NCBI GenBank assembly: GCA_947172415.1
Contig: OX359192.1
Coordinates: 4,652,501-4,716,500 of the forward strand
DNA length: 64,000 nt
Direction of reading: 5' to 3'
DNA from: Chondrosia reniformis
Taxonomy: Eukaryota; Porifera; Demospongiae; Chondrillida; Chondrillidae
In this document: positions 31,774 to 46,405 of the stretch, piece by piece
Numbering within the stretch: the first letter of the stretch is position 1
How the letters are laid out: the number at the start of each line of letters is the position of its first letter
Position numbers and translations under genes: made by a program
Notes under the pieces: model-generated
What the model was told of the DNA's origin: nothing
Seen by the model: only the letters and a program-made list of their open reading frames with translations
Databases searched by the model: none

Positions 31774-31911
31774 GTTGTGACTGGTTTGGTTGCTATAACC
31801 ACTAGCTAGTTGTTTTAATTTTTGGTATGTCAAATATTATTAGCTGTTACTTTAACCATATGATATTGTTTTGACGTATTATTTTTCATTTTTCACTGTA
31901 CGACAACTTCC
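31774..31911. repeat. J2 junction module, right copy (inverted)
   Basis: Reverse complement of 464-578 with about 20 extra bases (ttcatttttcactgtacg) near 31885. It marks the plus-to-minus turn of the array in the right arm. Confidence 0.8.
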
Positions 31912-34705
31912 TAAAACTAGTGTATACAACTAGGACATACAACTGGTACATACAACTAGTACATAAAACTAGTGCCTACAAGTAATGCATACAACTAGTA
32001 CATACAACTATTAACGCGGACATTCACCTAGTTCATAGAACTAGTATATTCAACTAGTACATACAACTAGAACATACAACTAGTACATGCAATTACTACA
32101 TACAAATAGTACTTACGACAAATATATACAACTAGTACATACAACTTGTCCCTACACATAGTATATATGAATAGTCCTAGTACATTAACTAATTCAAACA
32201 ACTACTACTTACAACTAGTACATGCAACTTGTAATGAGTACCTACAAGGAGTACATAAACCTAGTAACGATTACATACAACAACTATATACAACTAGTCC
32301 ATACACCTAGTACATACAACTGGTACATACAACTAGTACATTCAACTAGTACATACAACTATTTGTACAGCTACTACAAAGAACTGGTGCATACAACTAG
32401 TAAATACAAAGAGTACATACAACTAGTCCATACAACCACTTCAAATAACTAGAAAGTACAACTAGGCCTTCCAACTAGGAAATATAACTAATACTAGTAC
32501 ATACAACGAGTACATACAACTGGTTCATACAACTAGTACCTACAACTGGTCCATACAATCATACAATTACCACATACAACTAGTACATACAACTAGTACA
32601 TGCAGCTAGTAATGAGTACATACAAGGAGTACATTAAACTAGTAATCAATGCATACAACGAGTACATACGGCTAGTACATACAACTAGTACATACAACTA
32701 GTACATACAACTAGTACATACAACTGGTGCATACAACTAGTACATTCAACTATTACATACAACTAGTACTAAATCTACTACATAGAACTGGTGAATACAA
32801 CTAGTACAAACACCTAGTTCACACAACTAGCACATACAACTAGTACATCCAACTAGTACATGCAACTAGTATGTAGAGCTACTGCTACAACTAGTACATA
32901 GAACTGGTGCATTCAACTAGTAAATACAAATAGTACATACAACTAGAACATACGAATAGTTACGACTGCCTACAACAAATACACACAATCGGTAATGTGT
33001 ACATACAAGGAGTACATAGAACTAGTTCATACAACTAGTACTTACAACTAGTTCGTACAACTAGTACATACAAGTAGTACATGCAACAAGTACATATAAC
33101 TAGCACTTAGAACTACAACACACAACTAGTACATACAACTAGTAGCTATAACTGGTACATACAACAAGTTCAAACAACTAGTACATACAACTAGTAACGA
33201 ATTCATACAACGAGTACATAAAACTAGTAAGGAGTAAGTACAATGAGTACCTACAACTAGTACAGTTAACTAGTACATACAACTAGCTATATAGTACCTA
33301 GAACTAGTACATACAACTGGAACATACAAGTAGTAAATATAACAAGTACTAGTGCATACAACTAGAACATACAACTAGTATATACATCTAGTACATAACT
33401 AGTACATATAACTAGTACATATACCTAGTACATGTAACCATTATATAAAACTAGTTCACACATATAGAACTAGAACATACAACTAGTACCGACAAATAGT
33501 AGATAACACTAGCACATACAACTAATATATTTACCTAGTACTAGTACAAACAACTAGTTCCTACAACTAGTAAATATAACAACTACTAGTCTAAACAACT
33601 AGTACATATAACTAGTACATACAACTAGTATGTACAACTAAAGAGTACCTAGAACTAGCACATACAATTAATATTTACAATTAGAATATACAACTAGTAC
33701 AAACCACTAGTACCTACGACTAGTAAATATAACTAGTACTAGTAAATACAACTAGTTCAAACAAGTACTACATACTACTAGTACATTCAACTAGAACATA
33801 CAATTAGTACCTACAATTAGTACAGACAAATAGTACAAACAAGTATTAACGAGTACATACACCTGGAACGTGGAACCAGTATATACAACTAGTACAAACA
33901 ACTAGCACATACAACTGGTACATACAACTAGTACATTCAACTAGTTCATCCAACCAGAACATAAAACTAGTACATACAACTAGTAATGAGTACATACACC
34001 TAGTACATAGAACTAGTGTATACAACTAGTACATACATCTAGTACATACAACTAGTGCCTAGAACTAGTAAATATAACTAGTACTACTATAAAAACTAGT
34101 GGAGACAATAAGTTAATACAACTAGCACATACAACTAGTACATACAACTAGTACATACATCTAGTACATCCAACTATTACATACAATTAGTAAAAAATTA
34201 GTACATAGAATTTATGCATAGAACTAGTACATACAACTAGAACAAAGAACTAGTACATACAACTAGAACAGAAAACGAGTACATAACTAGTACATATAAC
34301 TAATACATATACCTAATACATGTAACCATTATATAAAACTAGTACACACATATAGAACTAGAACATACAACTTGTACTGACAAATAGTAGATAACACTAG
34401 CACATACAACTAGAAAATATACCTAGTACTAGTACAAACAAGTAGTACCTACAACTAGTAAATATAAGTAGTACTAGTACAATCAACTAGTACATAAAAC
34501 TAGTACATACAACTAGTTCATACTACTTTTCTATACAACTAGACAATACAACTACTAACTAGTGCATACAATTAGTACATACAACTAATATATACAACTA
34601 GTACCTGCAGCTAGTAAATATAAGAGGTATTAGTACATACGACTAGTACATACGACTAGTACCTATAACTAGTACATATAACTAGTTCATATAACTAGTA
34701 CATAC
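31912..34705 (-). repeat. 13-bp satellite array, minus orientation
   Basis: The first roughly 140 bp mirror 340-463. After that the match to the left arm is lost. Two nearly repeated blocks with acataactagtacatataac and a tatataaaactag...acacatatagaac word (about 33380-33530 and 34270-34420) show a local duplication of about 890 bp spacing. The 76-codon open frame at 32222 is translated satellite. Confidence 0.9.
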
Positions 34706-35833
34706 TTTAGAAACAAAAGCCTTAATGGAGAACCTTGTTACTTCTTGCCTTAGTGTACTAAGGCAAGGAGTATCCGGCTTGGACAACCCTCAGTCAGTTA
34801 TGTTTTCCTTTCTTTGGGTTTTTAGCCAGAAGCCTCGGCTTTGCCTCCTTCCGGCAGCAGCAGACAGGTGTACGTCGGGCCAAAGTTGACCGTCATAATA
34901 GGAGGGAGTACCTCCATACACAAATCCACCACTACTTTCCAGAGGTCGACAGGCAAGGACTGGGACAGGACTACTTATCGTCCAGGCCCCAATCCCTCAA
35001 CAGATAGATGTCGCCTCAATATCCTTACAGCCGGGCAGAGAACAGTTCTCTGCATCGCTCTCATCACTTCTATTGCACTTTTTGACAGCTTTGGAATTCC
35101 ACTTAGGTCTTCCAAGAGCGTGTCCACTGTCCCCAAAGCACCAATTATCATCGGGACTACCTTAATTCGGTAGCCCCCAATTTGTTTCCTCATATCAGCC
35201 GCCAGCTTCTGGTACTTTTGGAACTTCTCTTGCCATCTTCCATTAATATTACTGTCAGTAGGAACTGACATCTCAATAATGAAGATGGACTTACATAGCC
35301 GATCCTCAACCACTAAGTCTGGCCTTCTTTCTGTCATTTCATCATCTGTTGGGATACTAGGATCCCACAAGATTTTGACAGACCTATTCTCATAGACTGG
35401 TTTTGCTTCTAGTTTGTACCAGGGCTCTTCCTGCTTGAATCCATATTCTTTCAACAGTCTCCACAACACTATCAGTATTGCCCGGTCATGTCTCTCTTTG
35501 TAGAGAGAAAATCCCTTGGGCTCACACATGTTTAGTATGTGTTTGACCGTTTCCATAGCCTTGCCACATTCTCTGCACATTAGGAGGCTAGAATTCTTCA
35601 CAATCCTATTTTGGTACCACCTAGTGTGCAGCACATCATCTTGGGCTGCGAGAATCAGAGCCTCAGTTTGAGGTCTGAGTCTCCCCTCAGAAGAGCCACA
35701 CATAAGACTCCCTATTTGTGACTTGTCTGTGGTATGAGCCCTGGTGAGACTTTTCGGCTAGGTTACTTTTTAACCTTTCAGTCTGAGCCTCCCGGAGCTC
35801 ACGTGCCACCCTCCTCCATTCTCTTACACTAGG
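34706..35833 (-). mobile_element. 5'-truncated R4/NeSL-like retrotransposon (3' part only)
   Basis: Homologous to 54066-55163 of the near-complete element, in the opposite orientation. The 3' end lies at 34706, directly against minus satellite (ctttagaaac). The 5' truncation near 35833 abuts unrelated sequence. 5' truncation is usual for target-primed insertion. Because it sits exactly between satellite and the CACTA region, it may have removed or displaced that region's left end. Confidence 0.8.
34975..35703 (-). pseudogene. C-terminal zinc knuckle and restriction-like endonuclease of R4/NeSL-like element
   Basis: An uninterrupted 242-codon frame, a C-terminal protein fragment whose true start is missing. 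It opens with RLRPQTEALILAAQDD, then a C-x2-C-...-H-x4-C knuckle (CRECGK...HILNMC). The restriction-like endonuclease follows: RPDLV near residue 128, then FIIEMSVP, then the basic KYQKLAADMRKQ helix, matching the PD-(D/E)XK layout of R2/R4-type LINEs. Here the segment DSNINGRWQEKFQ is intact. The homologous stretch at 54640 in the longer copy is deleted, so this fragment preserves a better nuclease domain. Confidence 0.8.
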
Positions 35834-36333
35834 GTAGGTCATCTGGGTCCTCTTCAGGTCTCACTAATGTCAATTTCGGTCTTTCTCCGTTGTCTTCCAA
35901 TTCATGGTTCTCGGTAAAACCTTGTTGCTGAGCATCCTATGGTTTCTTCTTTTCAGAATTTGGGGGTGTAAGCAGATCAACCAGCACAAGCATGCTAGGG
36001 TTAGGATCATATTCAAAAACTCTTCTGGTTCTTTCAAGATTCAGCTTCCTTCTAACACGTTGTTTTCTCCTTTGTCTTATTTTCTTCTTCCAGAGGTCTT
36101 CTGATGTTTTTGGATAATGGTAATTTGCCATGCTGTAAAATTTTGTAAGTATGGAGTAATTAGTAATACCAGTACCAGTACACATGCATTCATAACACAT
36201 GGACACCAATGTATGCAGATAGGGTTGTTGTAGGACTAGTACTATAGGCTATACAACTCCAAACATGTAAGCTTGCCAGTCCAATGGTTTATTTTCAATT
36301 AGGCTATATATTATAAGTTTGTTTTTAGGTGAT
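35834..36333. other. Non-satellite spacer with a possible terminal exon
   Basis: Unique sequence between the truncated retrotransposon and the 49-bp repeats. On the minus strand an acceptor-like ttttacag precedes an open stretch (about 36130 down to 35937) encoding ANYHYPKTSEDLWKKK, then a very basic RQRRKQRVRRKL segment, and ending PPNSEKKKP-stop. It looks like a last exon, perhaps of a transposon accessory protein, but I could not find matching upstream exons. A stray satellite-like tgtaggactagtac occurs near 36229. Confidence 0.3.
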
Positions 36334-37212
36334 TAGATTGGTATAGCCCGAAGCAGGCTCCACATGTTCTAAGCTTGATTATTAGATTGGTACAGCCCGA
36401 AGCAGGCTCCCCATGTTCTAAGATTGATTATTAGATTGGTCCAGCCCGAAGCAGGCTCCCCATGTTCTAAGATTGATTTTTAGATTGGTACAGCCCGAAG
36501 CAGGCTCCCCATGTTCTAAGATTGATTTTTAGATTGGTACAGCCCGAAGCAGGCTCCCCATGTTCTAAGCTTTATTATTAGATTGGTTCAGCCCGAAGCA
36601 GGCTCCCCATGTTCTAAGATTGATTATTAGATTGGTCCAGCCCGAAGCAGGCTCCCCATGTCCAAAGTTATTTTTTGGTTAGTAGATTGGTACAGCCCGA
36701 AACAGGCTCCCCATGTTCTAAGTTTGATTATTAGATTGGTACAGCCCGAAGCAGGCTCCCCATGTTCTAAGTTTGATTATTAGATTGGTACAGCCCGAAG
36801 CAGGCTCCCCATGTTCTAAGTTTGATTATTAGATTGGTACAGCCCGAAGCAGGCTGCCCATGTTCTAAGATTGATTATTAGATTGGTACAGCCCGAAGCA
36901 GGCTCCCCATGTCCAAAGTTATTTTTTGGTTAGTAGATTGGTACAGCCCGAAACAGGCTCCCCATGTTCTAAGTTTGATTATTAGATTGGTACAGCCCGA
37001 AGCAGGCTCCCCATGTTCTAAGTTTGATTATTAGATTGGTACAGCCCGAAACCGGCTCCCCATGTTCTAAGATTGATTATTAGATTGGTACAGCCCGAAG
37101 CAGGCTCCCCAAGTTCTAAGCTTGATCATTAGATTGGTACAGCCTGAAGCAGGTTCCCCATGGCCATGTTCTAAGATTGATTATTAGATTGGTACAGCCC
37201 GAAGCAAGCTCT
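36334..37212. repeat. 49-bp tandem repeat, 18 units
   Basis: The unit is about 49 bp, built around agattggtacagcccgaag and caggctccccatgttctaag. I count 18 copies. Units 8-12 and 13-17 form a roughly 251-bp duplicated block: each begins with an atypical spacer (tccaaagttattttttggtt at 36661 and 36912) and a gaaacagg variant. The agcc...ggct core gives each unit a weak hairpin. It is unrelated to the 13-bp satellite and lies 3' of the transposase gene. Confidence 0.95.
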
Positions 37213-38196
37213 CAACATTCTTATAGTCATTGTTTTATTATTTAATGGCAAACAGGTACAATGTACATAATTGACAGGTCCAACCTGAAACATTATTATA
37301 ATTGCCAACTAATGTTTCATGTGCGCATTTATATATCTTTAAGAGTCAAACTGTTAACTTACTTCTTGTTATACAGGTAAACATCAAGTTAATACAGGAA
37401 CAGAACAACAGAACTATAACTTTAACCTTTCCTCTATATATAACTCATTAAAAATGATATCCCTCCAAAATGTCATGCCCTTGTCATGTGATTTACTATT
37501 TATGACATTTATCCTTGACAAAAATGTGTATTTTTAGAGCTTGAGATTACATATATACTATATACTTTTATGGAACATCTAAAATAGGAAACGAGTTCTG
37601 AGCATGCTCAAAGGCACATGGTATAGAGCTTCTTGCATAACTGTGTGCGCTTTCAAATAACATTATAATATTAATAAAATTATTATGGCTATTACGTATC
37701 ATGTACACCATATAATATATAGAGGCATTTAATTAGTATATACATCTAGATTTAAATTATATTATTACGTATAATAAAGCTGTGAAATCTGCAATAAAAT
37801 AATAAAATCCCATGGAAGGGCATACTAAACATATGTACACCTATATAAATTATTTTATGTATGCAAATTGCTGTACATTTTAAAAATCAATTGCAAAAAA
37901 CAGAAATATAATAGAACCACAGACAGCTATACATAGCTGATTCGAGCTTCTTGGCTCTCATCAGTGTGGTGCACTATATATAAAATGTGAGCTCAGCACA
38001 AGTCAGCCATTTTCCTATACAAGCAATTTCATTACATGCATAAGGAAATTAATAAATGGCAAATCATTATAAGACATTTGCATCACAGCTCAAAAAGTTC
38101 ATGATCATATATATATTGAATAAAATCAGAGAGGGATTTGACTAACAATAAGTACTCTGTCAGAACCACGTCTAGTTCCAAAATGAACATCTGCTT
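37213..38196. other. AT-rich non-coding region 3' of the transposase gene
   Basis: No satellite and no sizeable open frame. A possible extra last exon of the transposase lies on the minus strand after an acceptor-like ttggctag (about 38204), with an open run through about 38085. The hammerhead-like RNA is at 37916-37970. Confidence 0.6.
37916..37970 (-). ncRNA. Hammerhead ribozyme candidate (type I-like)
   Basis: Read on the minus strand, 5' to 3': stem I strand ACCACA (37965-37970), core CTGATGA (37958-37964), stem II GAGC/GCTC (37954-37957 and 37944-37947) closed by a 6-nt loop, core GAA (37941-37943), stem III CAGCTAT/ATAGCTG (37933-37939 and 37924-37930) with a 2-nt loop, cleavage triplet GTC, then stem I return strand TGTGGT (37916-37921). 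All three helices are perfect (6, 4 and 7 bp). The one departure is position 15.1, which is U (37940) where A is expected, facing U16.1. It lies about 225 bp past the transposase stop on the same strand, so it may sit in the 3' UTR. It may also be a retrozyme or Penelope relic. Confidence 0.7.
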
Positions 38197-41100
38197 CTAG
38201 CCAAATAACACGTGAGCAAATGTTCTGAATAGGAATAAAAACGGAATGGATTTCCAAAGAAGTAGTCCAAATCTCACAAGTGTACCTAGCCAATATCTGA
38301 ATTCATCTGGAATAAAAAAGTTTACATTGGCAAACCAAATAGAGTGTACATTTGTCAATCCACTTGCAACTGTAACCTGAGTGGAAACCTTAATGAAATA
38401 ATTTATCCTACAAAGGCTGGTAGCCTGTGTTGCAGTATCTTTATGTGCTAGCACACGACTGCAGGCATGAAACCTGCCTTCAAAGGAACCAATAGTAGAG
38501 CCATTTATCCTAACACAGTTACATTTTGAACATAGTATACCGATGTCAATTTGGCCTTCAAAAAGTCCACAGGAAATGAAAATTAAAGCTTCTTTGGTAA
38601 CTCTATCTAAAGATGACTCAAAAATAGGTGGTAAAGGAATCACTGAGCTACTTCCTATCTTATCACTGGAAATAGGTTTAAAGCAGACAGAAAGAGAGCC
38701 TTTCAAATTGGTGTAACCCAACAGAGGACCAAAGTCATCTTGGTATTCTTGGGGCAAACTTGAGGTAACAGTAAAATCAAGCATGCAAAATTTTCTCATA
38801 AGTTGGATCTCCACACTTCTGTTATTGGTTGGATATCCACCTAATAAACCATTCATCCTCTCAAAAGCAAATAACCAAAAACTATACACTGGGCCAAAGT
38901 CCCTTATACACTCCTGTAGATGAAGGTGTAAGTGCATATTGGGAGTCAAATACTTAGGGGAGTACAAAGCCTCAGTTTGTATACAAAAATCAGTTAACAA
39001 TTTATGGGCCTCAGCAATTTCATGTGGTTTAATTATTCTAGAGCAAAGTATACTGCATGCCTTTACAAACGTTTGCCAACATTTGTAATCATTAATTGGT
39101 AGAATATGCCTTAAGCAAGGCAGGGAAAACAATAAGACCCAATTTTTCCACTGATCGGCACTTAAGGAAGAAAACCCAGAGGACAGCTTAAATGGTATTC
39201 TTCCAACCTCAGATGGACCAATAAAATTATCTACCTTTTCCTGGATGGATTGGAAATCATTAGGCTTAAGTTTTCCAGTCTCTTTCCAAATTGTCATCAT
39301 ATGCTTTGCAGTTCCTAATAGTAAATTGTGCATGGGGTCGATTATAACCATTCTGGTAGGGTCAAAGTAAGGCAATTCTAAAAGCACTGAATACTTGATC
39401 CCATACTCTTGCTGTATCTTCCTTTGCGCCTGTTGAGAAGTAGCTAAATGCCATTTGTCTGCAAAAGACTGAACAAGTGACAGCTCCCTTTTTGGCCAGT
39501 TTTCAGTGTCAAACCCACCATAATTGGGCTTGTTAATGTCCGCTGCATATGTAAAAGCTTTTAAACATTTGAGGCATCCTCTATGGGCATTAAAATTCAC
39601 CAAACCTGACACTTTCCTAGCCGCAGGGGTATCACATGCAACACACAACAGAACTGCTCTAGCAAGTATTTTCCCACAGTCAGTACTTATTTCTACTCCA
39701 TTGTTCCAAAATGCCTTCAATTCAGCAACTAATGGTTCTAATATGAAGTTTAGGTTAGCAGGTTCTTTTGGACCGGGTATAAGACCAAGCAACAAAATGT
39801 TTTCTGGCTTAAATCTCTCAACCCTGGGTATATTTTGTATAGCCAAATAAATTGCACCCAAAGAATATGGGGTATGATCAAAGGGCTGAAAAAAATCTAA
39901 ATTTAACATAAATGCAAAAGTGTGCACACTACTTAATAAAGGCAAAGACTTATATTCCTGAAATTCCTTCCATATACTTCCATGGTAAACATCAGTGAGG
40001 TCAGGAGTTGGACCAACATTACGCCAATGTTGACACTTTTCCAGCATGCCTTTACGCATCAATATAGCTTCCAAACCTGTTTTAATACTTTTATAACAAT
40101 AAATCATCTTTGGAAAATAAAGAGTTTTACCTGCAGAAGTTCTATAGGATTTAAATAGAGGTTGATTGCAAGGCCTACGTTTGGATGGGTGTGGATGGTG
40201 TGGAAACTTGGCATAGCTACAGTATGCCTGCCTCTTTGAAGAATTTAGTCTTTCACCTAGAAGGTCTTCAGACTTATAAATAGAATTACACTTTTGGCAA
40301 TAAATGTACTTTTGAAAGGTGTCTTTTATATTAGTGGCTTTCTTAACCTGATAAACAGTTCTTGGCAATTTGCCTACAAATTCAGACATAGGTCCATTAG
40401 GAAATCGTTTAAGCATAGCCTCAAAAAATTTCACAATAAACAATAGAAAGATGGTTAGAGTAGCATTTGATAATTTACCTACAGACTGGATAGCTAACAG
40501 GAAGTGGGAATATAGAATAACCAACTTGTTGTGCCCATTGTCAGGACACGGAGATGTTTGCTCTTCATAACAATCATTGATAATGTCTTCAATCTCTTCG
40601 GGGTCAACTAGAAGATTAAGGGATTCACCTTCTTCTTCATTACCACTCATGTCACTATCAGAGTCAACAGCCTATGTTAAATATCAGAAAATGCCATTTC
40701 TCTAACTCATATAATTGACCTGCAGTCATGCACTTCAGTGCACTCACTTCTAAATGCTCATTTCCTCCAACTAAATTCTCCAAAGAAGCATCGATTGGTA
40801 TTCCTTGTTCTTGGACTTCCCTTGGTATGGAGTCCTGCCAACACATATAAAGGCACTATTGGACAACTAAATCCATGATGCATTCAATGCATACAGTACA
40901 GCAGTGCCTTCTACATACTGAAAGTATATGCATGTATACCATAATTGCTTGATCTTCATTGGGGGCTTCTTCAGATGCATGCTCTCCAACTGAATCTGAT
41001 TGACATTCTTCAACTTAATTAAGAGAAGGCATAAAGGGGTACTTTTAAGGTTAATTTTATCTTAATTGTTTAACAAAGTCTATATAAAATCAACATGCAT

Positions 41101-43440: not shown

Positions 43441-43996
43441 ATGGCACTAAGCTGTGATCCTACTGCACAAATGACTGCAAGCACAGGAGAGTGATCTAAC
43501 TTTAAACTTTAACAACATAAGTTTCACCTTTATATACGTTACAACTACATCCCAAATATATGTACACTTACTTGAATTTGTATTCACATTTTTGTTAATT
43601 CTCCAACTACTTTATCGATGTAGCCATTTTAATTTAACTTTGCGCAATACATATAAATGATTAAAGGATAAGGTCATGATCATGCAAAAAAGGTCATTCA
43701 TTTATTGAATTAGTACTAATGATATTCATAACTTTCACACCTCACCAGCCAAAACAGGCCTACTTAAAATGATATTCATAGAATCAATATTATTCATAAT
43801 CTAAAATAACAAACTATAAAAACTTTGCTTCTGACAATGTATACATTGCCAACTTCAGCAAACTCTAAGCAAATTCGTTCGTTTGCTCAAGTTTGCATTG
43901 TATGTAAACTTAAGGTTTGCTGAAGTGTAAACTAATGGCTTTGCTAGCAAAACAACTAAGTTTGCACAACTGTAAACTGCCCTTATTCTTGCAGTG
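43441..43996. mobile_element. Right end of the CACTA-like transposon
   Basis: A non-coding subterminal region ending at 43996. On the minus strand the end reads CACTGCAAGAATAAGGGC, a CACTG-type terminus usual for animal EnSpm/CACTA elements. The inner 150 bp are crowded with gcaaac/gtttgc words in both orientations, including an 11-bp inverted pair (43853-43863 and 43915-43925), like CACTA subterminal repeats that bind transposase. Minus satellite follows directly. I found no matching CACTG end on the left between 35834 and 38196. Confidence 0.65.
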
Positions 43997-46352
43997 AAAG
44001 TAGTTCAAACACCTACTACATACAACTAGTACAAGCAAATAGTAATGAGTACATTCAAGGAGTACATAAAACTATTAACGAGTGATTACAACGTGTACAT
44101 CCAACTAGTACATACAACTAATACATACAACTAGTACATACAACTGGTACATACAACTAGTACATTCAACTAGTACATACAACTAGTACTACAGCTACTA
44201 CATAGAATTGTCGAATTCAACTAGTAAATACAAAGAGTACATGCAACTAGTCCATATAACCAGTACAAATAACTAGTATGTACAACTAGAACCTACAACT
44301 AGTAAATATAACTAATAATACTACATACAACTAGTACATACACCTAGTACATACTACTAGTTCATACAACTACTACATAGAACTAGTACATACCACTAGT
44401 ATATAAAATTACTACTTCAACGACTACATTCAACTAGTACACAAAACCAGGACATTCAATTAGTGCATTTGACCACAATATATGACTAATGCTTACAACT
44501 TGAACATACAACTAGTACATACAAATAGTAACTAGTACATTCAACTAGAACATACAACTACTACATACAACTAGTACATGCAACTAATACACACAACTAG
44601 TTAATACAACTAGTTCTTGCAACTAGTATATACAACTAGTACCTACACGTAGTAAATATAAATAGCCCTAGTACATAAAGTAGTTCGTTCTAACAACTAC
44701 TACATAAAACTAGTACATACAACTAGTACCTACAGGTAGTTAATATAACGAGTCCCAGTACATAAAGTTGTTCAATCAACTACTACATACAGCTAGTACA
44801 AGCAAATAGTAATGAGTACATACAAGGAGTACATTCAACTAGTACATACAACTAGTAGTACAGCTACTACATAGAACTGGGGAATACAACTAGTATATAC
44901 AAAGAGTACATACAACTAGTCCATATAACCAGTACAAATAACTAGTATGTACAACTAGAACCTACAAATAGTAAATATAACTAATAATACTACATACAAC
45001 TAGTACATACAACTAGTACAAACTACTAGCATTGTACAAATAGTAAATATAACTTGTACTAGTACATACTACTAGCTCATACAACAAGTACATAGAACTA
45101 GTACATACAACTAGTATAAAATATTACTGCTTTAACTACTACGTACAAGTAGTACACACAACCAGGACATACAACTAGTACATACAAATAGTAACTTGTA
45201 TCATACAACTAGTGTGTACAAACAGTACCAACACCTAGGAAATAAAACTACTACTACACAACAACAACTACATACAACTAGTACATACATCTAGTACATA
45301 CAACTAGTCCATACAACTAGTACAAACAACTAGTACATATATCTGGTACATACAACTAGTCCAGACAATTAGTACACACAGCTAGTACATACAACTAGCA
45401 CATACAATCAGACCATACAACTATTAACTAGTACATACAACTAGTACACACAACTAATACATATAACTAGTATATACAACTAGTACATACAACTAGTAAT
45501 GTGTACATGAAGCTGGTACATCCAACTAGCACATACAAGTAGTACATACAACTAGTCTATACATCCAGCACATACAACTATTCAATACAACTAGTACTAC
45601 AAGTAGTACATAGAACTAATGCATAGAATTAGTTCATACAACTACTACATACAACTAGTACCAAAAATAGAACATACAACTAGTCCATACAACTAGTACA
45701 TACAACTAGTACATACAACTAGTACATACTGCTAGTACATGCAACTAGTACATACAACTAGTAAATATAAATATTATATACGATTCGTTTATACAACTGG
45801 TACCTACGACTAGTAAAATAACTAGTGCAAAAAACTAGTAGAAGAACTAGTACATAAAACTAGTACATACAAATAGTACATAAACCTATTACACACAACT
45901 AGCCATACAACCAGTACATACACAAGTAATTACAACTAGCACACACAACTAGTGCATACAACTTCTACATAAGTAGTATGTAGTATTAGTACATATACCT
46001 AGTACATAAAACTATTACATGAAACTATTAAATATAACTAGTACATACAACTAGTACATAAAACTATTACATACAACTACTACATATAACTAGTACCTAC
46101 AACTAGTACATTAAAGTAGAACTACAACTAGTACATACAGCTAGTACAAACAACTAGTACATATATCTACTATATACAACTAGTACACACAACTAGTACG
46201 TACAACTAGTTTAAACTAACTAGTACATGGAAATAGTACATACAACTAGTACATACCACTAGCACATTAAATTAGTACTACAACTAGTACGTAGAAATGG
46301 TACGTATAGAACTGGTACATACAAATAGTGTAATCAACTAGTACATAAAACT
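43997..46352 (-). repeat. 13-bp satellite array, minus orientation
   Basis: Resumes after the transposon block in the same orientation as before it (31912-34705), as expected if the block was inserted into one continuous array. A local duplication of the attcaaggagtacat and ctactacataga words occurs at about 44040-44340 and 44800-45010. No gene is seen. Confidence 0.9.
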
Positions 46353-46405
46353 TGTACATTAGACGTATATAGTATATTGACATAGTACACACATGCAGTA
46401 TGTAC
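46353..46405 (+). repeat. J1 junction module, copy 2
   Basis: Minus-to-plus turn of the satellite. It contains tacattagac, tatatagtatattgacatag and then acacatgcagtatg. It is homologous to 14842-14900 (inverted), 57934-57995 and 63417-63460. The left flank (acaaatagtgtaatcaac) also matches the left flank at 57903-57920. Confidence 0.8.

Follow-up and report, generated by a model that had tools for sequence, protein, structure and literature searches.

The DNA examined here, referred to as the window, is a stretch of 64,000 nt from the genome of the sponge Chondrosia reniformis, in which a short sequence resembling a hammerhead ribozyme follows the gene of a CACTA-like transposase. This arrangement raises the question of whether the sequence belongs to a genuine ribozyme family and, if so, what a self-cleaving RNA would do in a DNA transposon. 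The minus strand contains a complete hammerhead geometry of type I topology within 55 nt (37970-37916), and this geometry is real. Its parts are the following:

37916..37970, minus strand: hammerhead core with stems I, II and III (descriptor, Rfam HH9, covariance model and alignment)
37970-37965, minus strand: 5' arm of stem I, ACCACA (sequence reading)
37964-37958, minus strand: core CTGATGA (sequence reading)
37957-37954 with 37947-37944, minus strand: stem II, GAGC/GCTC (4 bp), loop CAAGAA
37943-37941, minus strand: core GAA (sequence reading)
37940, minus strand: U at 15.1, a departure from the family (alignment)
37939-37934 with 37929-37924, minus strand: stem III, CAGCTA/TAGCTG (6 bp), loop TGTA
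37923, minus strand: U16.1 (sequence reading)
37922, minus strand: C17, with the cut predicted 3' of it, between 37922 and 37921
37921-37916, minus strand: 3' arm of stem I, TGTGGT (sequence reading)
37907..37981, minus strand: complete conserved unit of the ribozyme, extending to outer stem I and the internal loop of stem I (GTGC / TC)

The CUGANGA, GAA and NUH elements and the three helices with an open stem I are those that define a type I hammerhead, and the A15.1-U16.1 pair is missing from the window copy owing to U15.1. A first-pass annotation had placed the parts of the motif correctly, had recognized the U in place of A at 15.1 and had given a cut 3' of 37922 and a distance of about 225 bp from the stop of the window's open reading frame, all of which agree with the minus-strand reading. 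Its helix lengths of 6, 4 and 7 bp were correct for stem I (6 bp) and stem II (4 bp), whereas the helix described as 7 bp is a stem III of 6 bp closed by a loop of 4 nt; one further T-A pair can be drawn on paper but would leave a loop of 2 nt.

The same annotation considered the arrangement very unlikely to occur by chance, which descriptor searches bore out. A relaxed descriptor that tolerates the change at 15.1 found a single site on both strands of the window, at 37970-37916, and zero sites in 7.68 Mb of first-order Markov sequence. A strict descriptor requiring A15.1 found zero sites in the window. In the genome, a core pattern of 34 nt, allowing 3 mismatches at most, occurred at 17 places and its reversed control at 0. 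With 0 descriptor sites in Markov sequence and 0 places for the reversed core pattern, a chance origin was rejected.

Scanning of the window against Rfam returned no family at its gathering score. The best Rfam match was Hammerhead_HH9 (RF02275) on the minus strand, with 23.0 bits against a cut-off of 52 (E=0.0046 in a 901-nt search at a relaxed threshold); the two share alignable UAC before stem I and a similar loop II (CAAGAA vs CAAAAA) and differ in that the window and its siblings score far from the cut-off. HH9 was detected in six of the seven sibling loci scanned (L002, L009, L010, L011, L017 and L019) at 18.7-28.3 bits, the latter in L002, and was not listed for L007, so that the cut-off was reached by none of the eight copies scanned from a family of 18. 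When the whole genome was searched with HH9, 58 candidates were scored and 53 weak places obtained (E up to 10), without any exceeding the cut-off; as 11 of 14 control genomes were also matched, these weak places were not used. The type III hammerhead model (RF00008) had no match in the genome and was silent in the control genomes too, which makes it uninformative. The curated models thus leave a hammerhead in the window neither accepted nor excluded. The first-pass annotation had named a sub-threshold covariance score together with poor conservation among genomic copies as the outcome that would count against the motif; a score below the Rfam threshold was indeed obtained, but since the core is conserved among the copies, the candidate is not refuted.

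This conservation, which includes the helices, was established in a family consisting of the window and 17 further loci (10-kb stretches) of the same genome. A 401-bp query from the window matched 19 places, 18 of which contain the motif, the 19th (L008) spanning only query positions 1-123. Besides the window, 3 places were 98% identical across the whole query, and 10 places (L010-L019) had only 59-101 bp around the ribozyme in common with it. A covariance model built from 13 sequences matched each of the 18 stretches once and once only, at 58-103 bits, the matches of the 13 building sequences being expected by construction; the window copy, one of these 13, matched at 37907..37981 with 95.4 bits. 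Most of the sequence change among the 18 aligned copies is found in loop III and the outer part of stem I; loop III is long in L036, and stem III has been rebuilt in L035. A15.1 is present in 17 of the 18 copies and U is private to the window copy, while G12 is replaced by A in five (L028, L030, L031, L032 and L034). Because the window copy carries U15.1, the hammerhead assignment is given to the family rather than to this copy, and it is the family, not the window copy, that forms the unit under selection.

The motif lies on the sense strand of the tnp2 (CACTA-like) transposase gene and in its 3' UTR, as the first-pass annotation had proposed. The surrounding element is composed as follows:

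43974..43996, minus strand: 5' terminal inverted repeat, CACTGCAAGAATAAGGGCAGTTT
38197..40671, minus strand: open frame of the tnp2 transposase, 824 aa (PF02992, E=1.8e-14)
37988..38092, minus strand: box C/D-like module on the upstream side of the ribozyme, TGAGC-T-GTGATGC ... CTGA-GCTCA
37728..37733, minus strand: ATTAAA, possible poly(A) signal of variant form, some 230 nt beyond CTGATGA
36221..37274, minus strand: tandem repeats of 49 bp, within the element's 3' half
35937..36248, minus strand: remnant of the element's second gene, a 293-aa open frame in sibling L021
35830..43996, minus strand: extent of the element in the window, the sequence common to other copies ending at 35830

Translated searches placed the C-terminus of the transposase 162-230 nt upstream of CTGATGA, on the same strand, at 13 of the 18 loci (the window, L020-L022 and L025-L033). 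Two loci are rearranged, with a transposase fragment about 1.5 kb upstream of the motif in L023 and inverted transposase fragments in L024, and no transposase was detectable by translated searches in the 10 kb of L034-L036. An intact frame of 847-848 aa is retained in five loci (L020, L021, L022, L026 and L029). All five copies with an intact frame pass the strict hammerhead descriptor, compared with 2 of the 13 others (P=0.0025, for copies that are not independent, since the three of type A hardly differ from one another and a single event may underlie all those with G12A). This difference supports selection on the hammerhead, short of proof. Numerous other tnp2 matches, at 35-61% identity, are present in the genome, among them fragments at C5:4503890 and C1:5637052; none of the 17 core-pattern sites lies beside these distant matches outside the 18 loci, although a diverged ribozyme would escape the pattern. 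In this genome, the ribozyme cassette is thus demonstrated for a single branch of the transposase family, to which it may be confined.

The element resembles the CACTA (EnSpm) transposons in its tnp2-type transposase (PF02992, with E=7.2e-15 in L021), its CACTG terminal inverted repeats and a second gene on the same strand. The open frame of this gene, 293 aa long in L021, is situated downstream of the ribozyme, and a Pfam search gave nothing convincing for it. CACTG inverted repeats were found at the 5' end in the window (43996) and in L020 and at the 3' end in L021, L022, L026 and L028-L032, and are read as the 5' and 3' ends of different copies, never both in one. In four of the eight loci with a 3' repeat (L028, L030, L031 and L032), this repeat abuts a minisatellite-like flank similar to a long 13-bp minisatellite (ACTAGTACATACA-like) that occupies about 31900-34705 and 44000-46360 of the window, which suggests insertion into the minisatellite or a shared duplication. 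Inverted duplications surround the B-type copies L028 and L030-L032, with arms of 284-1897 bp that are 97-99.9% identical. In the window, the minus strand at 34975-35757 contains a frame of 260 aa without a Pfam match at E 0.001, which on visual inspection looks like the C-terminal portion of a non-LTR reverse transcriptase.

The window element itself lacks the 3' part and its terminal repeat, and comparison of its transposase with the 848-aa siblings revealed a frame shift near residue 798. The RNA of the window copy probably cleaves poorly, because it carries U15.1 and its predicted fold breaks the core, and its transposase is also frameshifted. In a hammerhead survey, hits mispaired at 15.1/16.1 were rejected, and wild-type activity is cited as at least 10-fold above that of 15.1/16.1 mutants (PMC3088659), a difference that fits a weak or dead window copy. 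With ribozyme and transposase damaged and no 3' end, this copy looks like a decaying member of the family.

Folding predictions and covariation give a mixed picture. Among eight short spans folded, two of them from the window copy, the minimum free energy structure was the hammerhead in L002, L005 and L019, with the stem I internal loop and the outer stem formed, and was not the hammerhead in L010, L011 and L017. Owing to U15.1, GAU of CUGAUGA can pair with AUC in the window copy, whose minimum free energy structure therefore breaks the core. The z-scores of the short spans ranged from -0.77 to -2.11. In a 305-nt context, the full hammerhead was the minimum free energy structure in one of five copies (L025). 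Where it forms, the stem I internal loop might touch loop II. Covariation in a first alignment of 13 sequences was equal to that in shuffles. In an alignment of 18 rows, which was fitted to the covariance model, four pairs change on both sides, compared with a shuffled mean of 1.5, the observed number being reached by 5 of 500 shuffles; slid controls on this alignment had 0-1 such pairs.

The conservation of the ribozyme is best seen in the comparison of two transposase lineages, A and B. The transposases of L020 (A-type) and L029 (B-type) share 62.6% protein identity, and their identity at fourfold-degenerate positions is 0.339 (174 sites), against 0.334 expected from base composition; synonymous sites between A and B are saturated. 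Nevertheless, the ribozymes of L020 and L026 are identical at 61 of 65 columns, which were chosen by the analyst from the inner stem to the outer loop. When L021 (A) was compared with L029 (B) by BLAST, alignments were restricted to the coding region, the ribozyme (68 bp) and the 3' half; the flanking UTR gave none. The aligned 3' half begins about 250 nt past the ribozyme and reaches 95-97% identity in its longest blocks. Lineages with saturated transposases but a 95-97% identical 3' half containing the second gene exemplify modular exchange, and this 3' half must have been exchanged recently. Overall, these comparisons support strong selection on the hammerhead in the family, with the recent A/B exchange of the 3' half as a reason for caution.

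What these loci show directly is the sequence of the hammerhead, its strand and position, its conservation and its association with the transposase. Taking them together, the reading that we favour, and regard as fairly probable, is that the family is a CACTA-like (tnp2) DNA transposon with a resident type I hammerhead that brakes its transposase mRNA. The hammerhead would be a fixed part of the transposase 3' UTR. Once the transposase mRNA is made, the ribozyme would fold with its three stems and the stem I internal loop and cut 3' of C17. This cut would part the coding region from the poly(A) tail, and the loss of poly(A) would make the transposase mRNA less stable, amounting to a self-imposed brake on transposition. 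From the sequences we infer each of these steps, namely transcription through the site, cleavage, poly(A) loss and the braking effect. The ATTAAA that follows the window ribozyme could well be a chance occurrence, since such motifs are frequent in this AT-rich DNA, and no poly(A) signal was found within 700 nt in L030, L031 and L036.

A different service to the element has also to be weighed. Together with the box C/D-like module, the ribozyme might give the mRNA a poly(A)-independent, protein-capped 3' end, or might free a small C/D-like RNA, which we consider unlikely. The module is recurrent: a strict descriptor (C box, D box and closing stem) matched 7 of the 18 UTRs (L026, L028-L032 and L034) and a relaxed one 13 of 18, compared with 9 and 74 matches, respectively, in 20000 random 300-mers, but both descriptors were set after the sequences had been seen, and the window copy contains only the relaxed form. 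The module is retained where the UTR otherwise aligns poorly, and its closing stem, TGAGC/GCTCA, is lengthened to 7 bp in L034; this stem is nearly the palindrome GAGCTC, which makes pairing hard to prove. No Rfam snoRNA passed its cut-off, the best on this strand in 901 nt being snoU2-30 with E=1.2, and none was listed for the seven sibling loci. The module may be a DNA motif or, alternatively, the binding site of a kink-turn protein that keeps hold of the cut 3' end. A combined version, which we regard as possible but less likely than not, is that a two-part 3' UTR cassette of C/D-like module followed by hammerhead, kept across synonymous saturation, replaces or controls polyadenylation of the transposase mRNA.

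The conserved 67 bp might act as DNA, for example as a binding site of the transposase or a host factor, with the hammerhead likeness incidental. Most positions are indeed conserved as sequence, covariation is modest and the hammerhead is not the minimum free energy structure in most long-context folds; yet the core fits the hammerhead consensus in order and spacing, as listed in PMC3088659, and change is concentrated in loop III and outer stem I, including the altered stem III and loop III of L035 and L036, which renders a DNA site very improbable. Even more doubtful is an origin of the A/B ribozyme likeness in recent recombination or gene conversion instead of long selection. A and B do share the recently exchanged 3' half, but the ribozyme is located outside this block, between stretches that BLAST does not align, and it is kept in L033 and L027, for which BLAST found nothing in common with the window's portion of the 3' half. 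The least credible possibility is that a hammerhead of retrozyme, SINE-like or Penelope-like origin was captured by chance and has become inert, even though PMC7229834 and PMC6155905 describe such elements as the usual carriers of animal type I hammerheads. The first-pass annotation had offered a retrozyme or Penelope relic as the other likely origin, which is not supported, given the single motif in all 18 stretches and its similar post-transposase site in 13, and the ribozyme is kept in several diverged lineages. A retrozyme relic was rejected, as one match per stretch leaves no paired or tandem hammerheads delimiting an element, and so was a Penelope relic, the single hammerhead following the tnp2 transposase and not lying in terminal repeats.

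The preferred reading, a braking hammerhead resident in a DNA transposon, can be set beside known systems. A stem I internal loop is usual in animal retroelement type I hammerheads. Core, type I topology and a mobile-element host are shared with Schistosoma Sm-alpha and metazoan retrozymes, as described in PMC6155905, whereas those retroelements are non-autonomous and carry the ribozyme in repeated units, and here one copy stands in the transposase 3' UTR of a DNA transposon. According to the same review (PMC6155905), mammalian Clec2 genes have a hammerhead in their 3' UTR; the present case is similar in that a protein-coding gene carries the ribozyme at this site. The Clec2 ribozyme is an atypical, discontinuous type III ribozyme of a host gene, in contrast to the compact type I ribozyme of a transposon gene found here. 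The literature searched, for the most part papers outside subscription journals, did not describe a hammerhead from any sponge or from any DNA transposon of eukaryotes. To our knowledge, no CACTA element with a ribozyme has been described.

A second hammerhead family (CTGATGAGCCCTGGCATTGGGCGAAACAGG...) was also observed in this genome, for example at C1:4864128+, C2:3154537+ and C5:2242242-. Among the matches listed, out of 204 places, there are 12 members, all with a 4-bp stem II and a stem III of 4-7 bp; the pattern itself matched 204 places compared with 149 for its reversed control.

According to a review (PMC6155905), most data on genomic hammerheads point to retrotransposon propagation, with few domesticated cases. 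If the proposed role is true, the sponge family would place a hammerhead in the transposase 3' UTR of a DNA transposon without a role in retrotransposon propagation, and RNA self-cleavage would be a means by which a transposon adjusts the level of its mRNA. As its genome contains both intact copies and copies broken by natural mutation, C. reniformis would then provide a natural system for the study of ribozyme function in a 3' UTR.
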